In this document: positions 50,034-53,261 of the stretch, one piece after another
How positions within the stretch are numbered: position 1 is the stretch's first letter
How the letters are laid out: each line of letters begins with the position of its first letter
Origin: Chloroflexota bacterium
GTDB taxonomy: Bacteria; Chloroflexota; Dehalococcoidia; Tepidiformales; Tepidiformaceae
Direction: 5' to 3'
Length of the DNA stretch: 64,000 nucleotides
NCBI GenBank assembly: GCA_016234445.1
Contig: JACRBT010000004.1
Span: forward strand, 558,001 to 622,000
Position numbers and translations under genes: made by a program
Notes under the pieces: generated by a model
What the model saw: the letters and a program-made list of their open reading frames with translations, nothing else
What the model was told of the DNA's origin: nothing
Databases searched by the model: none

Positions 50034-50993
50034 ATGGCCGACGTACGGCACCATTTCGTCCAGACAAACGGCATCCGGATGCACGTCGCCGAAGCAGGCG
50101 AAGGCTTCCCGGTGGTCATGGTCCACGGCTGGCCCGAACTCTGGTATTCGTGGCGGCACCAACTGAAGGCGCTTTCCGAGGCCGGCTTTCGCGCCATCGC
50201 CCCCGACATGCGCGGCTACGGCGACACCGACGCCCCGCCCGACCCGGCCCAATACCGGACGAGCGTCATCTGCGCTGACATCGCCGGGCTGCTGGACGCC
50301 CTAGAGATCGAGAAGGCCGTCATCGTCGGGCACGACTGGGGCGGCTACCACATCTGGCAGTTCGGCCTGCGCTACCCGGACCGCACGGAACGCCTGGTGG
50401 GCCTGAACACGCCCTACTCGCCGCCGACGCCCATCCCCTCGACACAGGCCCTGCACGCGGCCTTCGGCGAAGGCGACCGCGGCTACTACATGCTTTACAA
50501 CCAGAAGCCCGGCCAGCCCGAAGCCGAGTTCGAAGCCGACATCCGCGGGAACATCGCCAAGGTGATGCACCCCTACACGCGGGCGCAGGACCTCTGGACG
50601 ATGGCGACGCTCGGCGGCGATGGCAGCGGCATGTACACCCGCATCCCGACGCCCCCCGCGGACCAGATGCTCCTGACGGAGGCGGACCTCGACGTCTACG
50701 CGAAGGCCTTCGAGCGCTCCGGCTCCCGCGGCGCCTTCAACTGGTACCGGGCCATCGACCTGAACTGGGAAGACGCCCGCGCCCTGCCGGACCCCGTAAT
50801 CCGTGTCCCGGCGATGATGATCACGGCCGAAAACGACCTCATCCTCCGGCCGGAAGCCGCCGAGCCAATGCGGCAGTGGATCCCCAACCTCCGGATCGAG
50901 CACATCAAGAAGTGCGCTCATTGGACCCAGCAGGAACGGCCGGAGGAGGTCAACCGCCTCCTCATCGACTTCCTCGGGGACCTGCGGGGGTAG
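50034..50993 (+). CDS. Alpha/beta hydrolase, epoxide hydrolase-like
   Basis: 319 residues. The oxyanion motif HGWPELWYSW is at 31-40 and the nucleophile elbow VGHDWGGYH carries Asp101, so it is an Asp-type hydrolase (epoxide hydrolase or haloalkane/haloacid dehalogenase class) rather than a serine esterase. The cap region contains tyrosines (GYYMLYN) that could open an epoxide. The catalytic His is in KCAHWTQQERPEEVN. HGxP favours an epoxide hydrolase. ATG preceded by GGGAGGGAACC. Confidence 0.86.
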   Translation: MADVRHHFVQTNGIRMHVAEAGEGFPVVMVHGWPELWYSWRHQLKALSEAGFRAIAPDMRGYGDTDAPPDPAQYRTSVICADIAGLLDALEIEKAVIVGHDWGGYHIWQFGLRYPDRTERLVGLNTPYSPPTPIPSTQALHAAFGEGDRGYYMLYNQKPGQPEAEFEADIRGNIAKVMHPYTRAQDLWTMATLGGDGSGMYTRIPTPPADQMLLTEADLDVYAKAFERSGSRGAFNWYRAIDLNWEDARALPDPVIRVPAMMITAENDLILRPEAAEPMRQWIPNLRIEHIKKCAHWTQQERPEEVNRLLIDFLGDLRG

Positions 50994-51166: not shown

Positions 51167-51499
51167 TCAGCAGCAGTTCGTTTTGGCCGCGGGGGCCTGT
51201 TCCGGCGGGCAGCAGACGTCGTTGCAGAAGCGCGCCAGCCAGCGCACCGTCTCCGGGTCGAGGCAGTAGCAGGGGTCACCGTCGGAAGAACCACGGACGA
51301 TGCCGGCCTCCTTAAGCACCTTCAGGTGCTGGGACACAGTCGACTGCGCCAGCGGGAGCACCTCCACCAGGTCGGCGGTGATGCAGGCGTCCCGGCGAGC
51401 GAGTTCGGTGACGATGCGGATACGGGCGGGATTGCCGAGCGCGCGGAAGACGGCGGAGGCGCGCTCCTCTTCGTCCGTGAGTCCCTCGATGGCTTTCAT
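51167..51499 (-). CDS. ArsR-family metal(loid)-type regulator with C-terminal cysteine cluster
   Basis: 110 residues. The winged helix has FRALGNPARIRIVTELARRD, the recognition part AQSTVSQHLKVLKEAGIVR and a wing SSDGDPCYCLD. Cysteines are C-Y-C in the wing and CNDVCCP...TNCC at the C-terminus, so a thiol-binding ligand such as arsenite or a soft metal is likely, though not in the usual ELCVCDL place. TACGAT 6 bases before ATG. It is divergent from the selenoprotein gene, 83 bases apart, and is a likely regulator of it. Confidence 0.88.
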   Translation of the reverse strand: MKAIEGLTDEEERASAVFRALGNPARIRIVTELARRDACITADLVEVLPLAQSTVSQHLKVLKEAGIVRGSSDGDPCYCLDPETVRWLARFCNDVCCPPEQAPAAKTNCC

Positions 51500-51582: not shown

Positions 51583-52476
51583 ATGGAACCGGTGGACTAC
51601 ATCGCCCGCCTGAAGCGGACCTACGCGAAACTCGGGTACCCGGCCTACCAGTGGGTGCACAGCGAAACCCCGCCGCCATGGGCGCCGGTCCGCAAGCCGC
51701 TTTCGGAATCGCGGCTGGGGCTGATCGCCTCCGGCGGGATCTACGCCGCGGGACAGGTCGCCTTCCACTTCAAGGACGACACCGGCATCCGCGCCATCCC
51801 CCGCGACGTGCCCACAGCCGAACTGCGGACCGCCCACTTCGCCTACGACCAGACCGACGCTCGCAGCGACCCCAACGTCGTCTTCCCGATCGACACCCTT
51901 CGTAACCTCGTCGCCGAGGGAGTGATCGGCGAACTCGCGAGCCACGCCTACACCTTCATGGGCGGGATCTACTCGGCCCGGCGCGTCCGCGAAGACGTTG
52001 CCCCGGCCCTCCGCCAGCGCCTCCAGGACGAACGGGTCGACATCGCCCTCCTGGTGCCCGTCTGACCGGTTTGTCACCAGTCCGTGGGACTGGTTGCCCG
52101 CGAAGTCGAAGCGGCCGGCATCCCGACGCTCTCGATGACCAGCGCCCTCGACATCACCCGCGCGGTGAACCCGCCGCGCGCCGCATTCCTCGACTACCCC
52201 CTGGGCCACACCACCGGAAAGCCCCACGAACCCGCCCTCCAGCGGGCGATCATGCTCGAGGCGCTGGATGCCTTCACCTCCCTCCGCGAGCCCGGCCAGG
52301 TGAAGCACCTCCCCTTCCGCTGGGACGAGGACGAAAGGTGGAAACACGGAATGGCCGGCACCGACACCCGGACGGAGCGGTTCGACACCCCCCAGTACCA
52401 GTGTGAAGAGGACCGCCTGAAAGCGGCCGCGCTGGAACCGGGCGATTGCCCGGTCTGCGGACTGGAAGACCTTTAG
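51583..52476 (+). CDS. Probable selenoprotein, glycine/sarcosine/betaine reductase selenoprotein B (GrdB/PrdB) family, in-frame UGA
   Basis: Read as one 297-residue protein with TGA 52063-52065 as selenocysteine 161. Upstream, GLIASGGIYAAGQVAFHF, PNVVFPIDTLRNLVAEGVIG and TFMGGIYSARR match the GrdB/PrdB-like family; downstream in the same frame, VGLVAREVEAAGIPTLSMTS and DYPLGHTTGKP continue it. The UGA falls at U-P-V-C-H-Q, where family members carry U/C-x-x-C. A hairpin with the features of a bacterial SECIS starts 10 bases after the UGA. The C-terminus adds CPVCG. In known relatives the selenol attacks glycine, betaine or D-proline adducts; the substrate here is unknown. Without Sec insertion a truncated 160-residue product would result. 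Confidence 0.82.
52066..52097 (+). promoter_or_regulatory. Bacterial SECIS-like hairpin downstream of in-frame UGA
   Basis: ACCAGTC (52076-52082), loop CGTGG, GACTGGT (52088-52094): a perfect 7-bp stem, extended by G73-C97 and U74-G96 around one mismatch. The apical loop starts 18 bases after the UGA and has G in its second position, as the published bSECIS rule expects (G in the first two loop bases). Confidence 0.75.
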
Positions 52477-52526: not shown

Positions 52527-53261
52527 ATGCCCACTCGCGTCCAGCCATCCATCGACATCCGCCGCGCCGGCGAGCGTTTCCAGACGGAGATCTCGTGGCT
52601 CGATTCGCGGCATTCGTTCTCGTTCGGCCACCACTATGACCCTGAGAACACCCATTTCGGCCTGCTCCTCGTCAGCAACGACGACGTCGTCCGTCCGGAC
52701 ACCGGCTTCTCCACGCACCCGCACCGTGACATGGAGATCGTCACCTGGGTGCTCGAAGGCGAACTCGAACACAAGGACTCCGAGGGCCACACGGGTGTCA
52801 TCCACCCCGGGCTCGCCCAGCGAATGAGCGCGGGGACCGGGATCTGGCACTCGGAGATGAATGCCACCCGCGGCGGTGACGTCCACTTCGTCCAGATGTG
52901 GGTTGTGCCTGACACGGAAAGCATCCGGCCCGCTTACCAGGAACTCGACATCGGCAAGGAACTGGCGAAGGGCGGCCTCGTACCTGTCGCCTCCGGGCGG
53001 GGCCACGAAGCTGCCATCTCCATCCGCCAGGAAGGCGCGACCCTCTGGGCGGCGCGGCTCAAGGTGCGGGAGTCCGTCCGCCTGCCCACCGCGCCGTTCG
53101 TCCACCTGTACGTCGCCGATGGAGACGTGACGGTTGGCGGCGAGACGCTTGGCCGTGGCGACGCGGCGCGCATGACCCACGCCGCCGAGGGTCAATCGCT
53201 CACCGCCGGGTACATGGGCGCCGAGGTGCTGATCTGGGAGATGCACGGCCGCCTGGGGTAG
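52527..53261 (+). CDS. Pirin-family protein (bicupin)
   Basis: 244 residues. RRAGERFQTEISWLDSRHSFSFGHHYD, split here, is the pirin opening; STHPHRDMEIVTWVLEGELEHKDS carries the metal-binding His residues, and GTGIWHSEMN the second set with His and Glu. The C-terminal cupin (FVHLYVADGDVTVGGETLG) is intact. Pirins bind iron or another metal, some act as quercetinases. ATG 52527 has GGGAGGACCC upstream and TAAGCT at 52502-52507 as -10. Ends tail to tail with the MBL gene. Confidence 0.9.
   Translation: MPTRVQPSIDIRRAGERFQTEISWLDSRHSFSFGHHYDPENTHFGLLLVSNDDVVRPDTGFSTHPHRDMEIVTWVLEGELEHKDSEGHTGVIHPGLAQRMSAGTGIWHSEMNATRGGDVHFVQMWVVPDTESIRPAYQELDIGKELAKGGLVPVASGRGHEAAISIRQEGATLWAARLKVRESVRLPTAPFVHLYVADGDVTVGGETLGRGDAARMTHAAEGQSLTAGYMGAEVLIWEMHGRLG

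Follow-up and report, generated by a model that had tools for sequence, protein, structure and literature searches.

A predicted selenoprotein of the GrdB/PrdB superfamily in a Chloroflexota genome, encoded through an in-frame UGA and a SECIS hairpin

The window (the whole stretch of 64,000 nucleotides of Chloroflexota DNA analysed here) contains two open frames in the same register, separated by a single TGA codon. The locus raises the question of whether this TGA is a stop or encodes selenocysteine (Sec) and, in the latter case, what kind of enzyme the gene encodes. A first-pass annotation had proposed a selenoprotein of the GrdB/PrdB family with a SECIS-like hairpin, acting outside Stickland-type amino acid reduction and perhaps in a redox or metalloid role. 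Judged by comparison with related loci, the UGA of this frame is a Sec codon served by a SECIS, and the gene encodes a selenoprotein of the GrdB/PrdB superfamily (Table 1).

The UGA codon, the downstream hairpin and the Sec machinery

The frame starts with an ATG at position 51583 and consists of 160 codons, the TGA, 136 further codons and a TAG; the coordinates given in the first-pass annotation are exact. When the TGA is read as Sec (U), a chain of 297 residues results, containing the motif ALLVPV-U-P-V-C-H-Q-S-V-G-L, so that the codon falls inside U-P-V-C, as had been claimed.

Table 1. Coordinates of the gene, its recoding elements and its neighbours in the window.
Feature	Position	Strand	Remarks
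Alpha/beta-hydrolase, upstream neighbour	50034..50993	+	Not conserved as adjacent
Divergent ArsR-type regulator (HTH_5)	51167..51499	-	Adjacency not conserved, probably unrelated
Predicted gene for a PrdB-like selenoprotein of 297 aa (Sec at 161)	51583..52476	+	Stop TAG 52474-52476
In-frame TGA, Sec161 of U-P-V-C	52063..52065	+	109 of 110 related loci have TGA, the other TGC
Codon TGT for Cys164, the invariant Cys of U-x-x-C that partners Sec161	52072..52074	+	
SECIS hairpin	52076..52094	+	Stem 52076-52082/52088-52094, loop CGTGG 52083-52087
C-terminal extension (PQYQ ... C-P-V-C), close subfamily only	52388..52473	+	Last residues of low pLDDT
Pirin-family gene, downstream neighbour	52527..53261	+	Not conserved

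The comparison covered 110 related loci, 30 of them from whole genomes of class relatives (the window's own gene included) and 80 from GTDB species genomes. The exception to TGA is L093, a Desulfobacteraceae record, in which the hairpin is lost as well (four of seven pairs kept). An alignment at residue 161, suggested earlier as a check, hence shows UGA alternating with Cys only. Almost all PrdB-type matches in the window's class relatives contain exactly one TGA. In G015, a same-family relative with no SelA match, a gene of a paralogous branch (L139, G015:C3:15361-16017) contains none and has Cys at the site (CPVCHQTTSL), a Sec/Cys exchange alongside absent Sec machinery. When the window gene is compared with five relatives, substitutions are enriched at third codon positions both before and after the TGA; for the 76%-identical gene of L051, the counts at codon positions 1, 2 and 3 are 21, 23 and 76 before the TGA and 20, 21 and 62 after it. 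This third-position excess after the TGA indicates that the downstream part is translated in the same frame and is under selection.

The hairpin (ACCAGTC-CGTGG-GACTGGT) starts 10 nucleotides after the TGA and has a G at the second loop position; a possible eighth pair would reduce the loop to three nucleotides. Folded alone, the window sequence is unremarkable (z -1.4, not significant), and seven pairs also arise in 10% of trials when the window gene alone is resampled synonymously. In a set of 80 close TGA-containing sequences (the window and 79 loci), an average of 6.71 of the seven stem pairs is kept, where synonymous resampling with the codon usage of these genes predicts 4.72, and at least six pairs are present in 96%. 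The glycine codon of the 3'-arm, on the loop side, is GGA in 75 of these 80 sequences, versus 277 of 1490 glycine codons (19%) over the same genes, while in the eight cases with CAA for Gln the Leu codon is always TTG and the pair is kept. In a covariation alignment of 26 sequences, which includes both paralogues of the window's own genome, pairing is seen in 95.1% of cells, and three of the seven pairs show changes on both sides. None of 500 shuffles matches the paired fraction, the count of double-change cells or the covariation score, shifted partner registers fail, and RNAalifold, unaided, returns the identical stem with two additional lower pairs. The paralogues have Thr-Ser in place of Ser-Gly and, in the copy on contig C20, a T-A pair is swapped to A-T with the stem kept. 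An Rfam scan of the window matched only a tRNA. The 7-bp hairpin of the first-pass annotation is confirmed in all its details, and the comparative evidence, which is decisive, identifies it as a conserved bacterial SECIS with compensatory changes.

The window's own genome (G000; 3.54 Mb, 97% complete) contains a tRNA-Sec with anticodon UCA (66.9 bits), SelB (317 bits), SelD (361 bits) and SelA (541 bits), so all four components for which a search had been advised (selA, selB, selC and selD) are present. The SelD gene (L017, G000:C10:286703-287638) has an in-frame TGA of its own at the usual UxxK place, which probably makes SelD another selenoprotein. The gene directly upstream of tRNA-Sec is tyrosine-recombinase-like (MVEKTKRRRAHGEGG..., L001 1497-2894, G000:C16); an integrative element next to selC is possible. 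Two further PrdB-type UGA genes, L137 (C8:109752-110417) and L138 (C20:45705-46349), bring the paralogues to three; both read U-P-V-C-H-Q-T and each has a hairpin.

Of 196 class-relative genomes, 64 have a UGA-containing gene, and SelA is found in 52 of these; of the other 132, 71 have it (Fisher p 1.6e-4, only a guide, as the genomes are related). The 12 genomes with a UGA-containing PrdB-type gene and no SelA match are G018, G023, G024, G052, G055, G066, G077, G129, G151, G163, G167 and G186, of which G055, G077 and G167 are 90-95% complete; missing contigs, binning or a diverged SelA may account for them.

Family assignment and predicted structure

The protein matches the Pfam family GRDB (PF07355) with 45.9 bits (E 6e-12), above the gathering cut-off of 22 bits, and the NCBIfam family PrdB (TIGR04483) with 170.4 bits (E 4e-50), below the curated cut-off of 300 bits, which is passed in none of the 196 class-relative genomes. 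The PrdB match extends over 219 residues (29 to 247) and thus runs across the TGA, in agreement with the in-frame homology reported earlier for both sides. GrdB, GrdF and GrdH are matched more weakly in NCBIfam, in their C-terminal parts; the match to TIGR01917 (GrdB) reaches 64 bits over profile positions 261-420 only, with a cut-off of 602 bits, so the protein does not qualify as a full-length GrdB. From these profile comparisons, it belongs to the wider PF07355 superfamily, as a stand-alone protein homologous to PrdB and to the C-terminal half of GrdB.

The protein is 65-71% identical to proteins from Binatota and Proteobacteria metagenome-assembled genomes (L051-L061) and only 45-48% identical to many members from its own class (L024, L029, L030, L038), a greater closeness to other phyla that suggests horizontal transfer of the gene. 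One record titled Klebsiella pneumoniae (L097, CAMAVY010000021.1) contains a 58% homologue of this environmental family, and its title looks wrong.

The AlphaFold model, made with 46 homologues, has a pLDDT of 94 and a pTM of 0.93. Residue 161 is located between a beta-strand (residues 154-158) and an alpha-helix (residues 162-177), at the start of the helix. In the alignment of 46 diverse members, where Sec161 is printed as C, the invariant columns are G52, H85, P102, G127, U161, C164, E176, G179, R199, P206, G208 and G212. Those outside the UxxC motif (G52, H85, P102, G127, R199, G208 and G212) suggest a specific pocket for a small molecule. Among solved structures, phmmer found none at E 1, and a profile search gave only low-information matches, to designed proteins and, at E 2, a glutaredoxin. 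When folds are compared, there is no Foldseek match under 1e-3, the best VIA match has a Z of 7.7, which is within the range of common arrangements, and the best structural neighbours are generic alpha/beta folds.

Proposed reaction and alternative readings

In the mechanism that we propose, SelB and Sec-tRNA(UCA) would decode the UGA via the hairpin, yielding a single selenoprotein. Sec161, at the amino-terminal end of the helix after the central strand, would be the nucleophile attacking an electrophilic substrate; the seleno-adduct would then be resolved by Cys164, giving a selenenylsulfide, and the enzyme would be regenerated by a dithiol donor, for instance thioredoxin. The cycle of Sec nucleophile and resolving Cys is inferred from PrdB/GrdB chemistry: for PrdB, it has been proposed that the selenol attacks the alpha-carbon and that a Cys cleaves the selenoether to a selenide-sulfide, which is reduced by PrdC or a dithiol (PMC3091704). 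The probability of a stand-alone Sec-nucleophile redox enzyme, meaning this whole explanation minus the substrate class, is put at roughly 85%. The guessed substrate class, an alpha-activated small molecule that would undergo reductive C-X cleavage without need for pyruvoyl (Schiff-base) activation, is tentative, its chances being rather below even.

A stand-alone selenoperoxidase or thiol-disulfide oxidoreductase acting against oxidants, and not a C-X reductase, is a serious possibility, although not the one we would choose. GrdB reportedly has peroxidase activity, most carriers of the gene have oxidases and the UxxC motif would fit a redox function, but the lack of a thioredoxin-fold match in the aforementioned fold comparison argues weakly against it, and the conserved residues outside the motif are suggestive of a specific substrate pocket.

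Partner subunits were searched for with PF09338, which we take to cover GrdE/PrdA-type subunits. There is no match in the window's own genome, while the same search is positive in nine of the 196 class relatives. Several of these matches adjoin long GrdB-type UGA genes (for example L131, G055:C11, and L134, G109:C45); from such loci, true glycine/betaine-type reductases do occur in the window's class. In a carrier set of 44 genomes (the window's own and 43 reached through GTDB loci), PF09338 was not found in 41, where a diverged or unrelated partner could exist; the three positive carriers are two Entotheonella genomes and one from the Desulfobacteraceae. SelA is present in 42 of the 44, and haem-copper oxidase subunit I (COX1) in 41, G000 included, with oxidase genes denoting respiratory capacity and not proof that the protein works under oxygen. 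Sequence comparison thus shows a lack of the pyruvoyl-type partner family and a predominance of carriers with terminal oxidases. A search of G000 for GrdA gave no match, and the control search likewise matched nowhere.

It is highly improbable that the protein is a genuine subunit of a D-proline (or glycine/betaine) reductase, working with a pyruvoyl partner in Stickland fermentation. PrdB is its best NCBIfam match and its UxxC lies at the place equivalent to Sec152 of the Clostridium sticklandii protein (PMC3091704), but the score is far from the family cut-off and, although D-proline and glycine reductases need a second, pyruvoyl-forming subunit, PrdA/GrdE (PMC3091704, PMC10838667), the window's own genome has neither a match to that family nor one to GrdA (the latter also missing in the control), and it does have a haem-copper oxidase. 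Exceptions without a pyruvoyl-forming second subunit exist (PMC10838667). A D-proline/glycine reductase in the usual sense was rejected because no GrdE/PrdA-type subunit was found with PF09338 in its own genome or in 41 of the 44 carriers. A role different from Stickland proline or glycine reduction, as first suggested, is therefore probable. The accompanying statement, that known members act in Stickland reduction of anaerobes, is incomplete, given the oxidases of the carriers and a family already abundant in surface-ocean metagenomes (PMC1088965, PMC2398784).

Regulation by ArsR and a role in handling metalloids, the other suggestion made from the sequence, is very unlikely. The regulator, which has Cys pairs at its C-terminus, lies about 80 bp from the gene in divergent orientation, but no ArsR match is present near the gene in any of 80 related loci, not even in the 76%-identical L051; with the adjacency not conserved, the metalloid role is left without support. 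The pirin gene has no match in any of the 80 loci either and the hydrolase has distant matches only, in three. An all-against-all comparison of flanking open reading frames over the 80 loci revealed no family shared across most phyla, only lineage-specific neighbours. From reading their sequences and not from database matches, we take some gammaproteobacterial neighbours to be DUF427, bacterioferritin and enoyl-CoA hydratase, and scattered others to be SDR, acyl-CoA dehydrogenase, CoA-transferase and Opp transporter genes.

A nonsense-mutated pseudogene or an error of sequencing, to which the in-frame stop might point, has next to no probability and is already refuted by the comparative data, with the TGA common to all but one of the loci, from many phyla and assemblies, no sense codon other than that one TGC, no frame drift, a conserved SECIS with compensatory changes, an equal third-position preference on both sides of the TGA and a complete Sec machinery in the genome.

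Comparison with known systems

Ocean DNA had already yielded the PrdB-type family by 2005: among the known selenoprotein families of the Sargasso Sea, "proline reductase PrdB", with UxxC, ranked third in abundance, with 42 genes (PMC1088965). In the GOS data, 235 PrdB members were assigned to pfam07355, in a paper that leaves PrdA unmentioned (PMC2398784), and recent reviews list PF07355 and TIGR04483 with UxxC (PMC9312934, PMC13188914). The window gene adds a member to a selenoprotein family described before, which makes the discovery itself modest. The Sargasso/GOS proteins have the same family label and the UxxC motif, and come from surface-ocean DNA, in which one would not expect strict anaerobes, although those papers name them after D-proline reductase (PMC1088965, PMC2398784); likened by label and motif, they very probably include the subfamily of the window gene. 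No paper on stand-alone PrdB-like proteins or on PrdA absence in marine carriers, and no discussion of the stand-alone, oxidase-associated distribution, was found in the papers searched, which were mostly open-access.

The useful part of the analysis is the correction of an annotation. With carriers that almost all lack a GrdE/PrdA-type subunit and almost all have a terminal oxidase, the D-proline reductase (Stickland) label would lead to wrong metabolic reconstructions for bacteria of oceans and soils; the question raised is what one of the commonest marine selenoproteins reduces. We would entertain, as a speculation with the odds against it, a widespread class of stand-alone Sec-dependent enzymes of oxygen-respiring bacteria, long filed under "PrdB", which, with no pyruvoyl partner, would perform an undescribed reductive cleavage of a compound common in both oceans and soils.

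Of the characterised relatives, C. sticklandii PrdB (TIGR04483) shares profile homology over 219 residues and a Sec in UxxC near residue 150-160 (its own is Sec152 of 242; PMC3091704). The window protein differs from it in scoring 170 bits against the 300-bit cut-off, in its longer C-terminus, in a host with a terminal oxidase and in having no PrdA-type partner found. To GrdB, GrdF and GrdH of glycine, sarcosine and betaine reductase (PF07355, TIGR01917/01918), it is homologous in their C-terminal half, including the Sec site, but it is without the N-terminal part of GrdB, no GrdE was found, and it has only UxxC where UxxCxxC is described for GrdB (PMC13188914). GrdB relatives also act on other substrates, such as fluoroacetate, which is reduced in Synergistota by FarB and FarE, the latter without the pyruvoyl-forming cysteines (PMC10838667). 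FarB is paired with FarE in an operon, whereas no second subunit was found for the window protein; the likeness lies in a GrdB-type selenoprotein that works on a substrate other than an amino acid.
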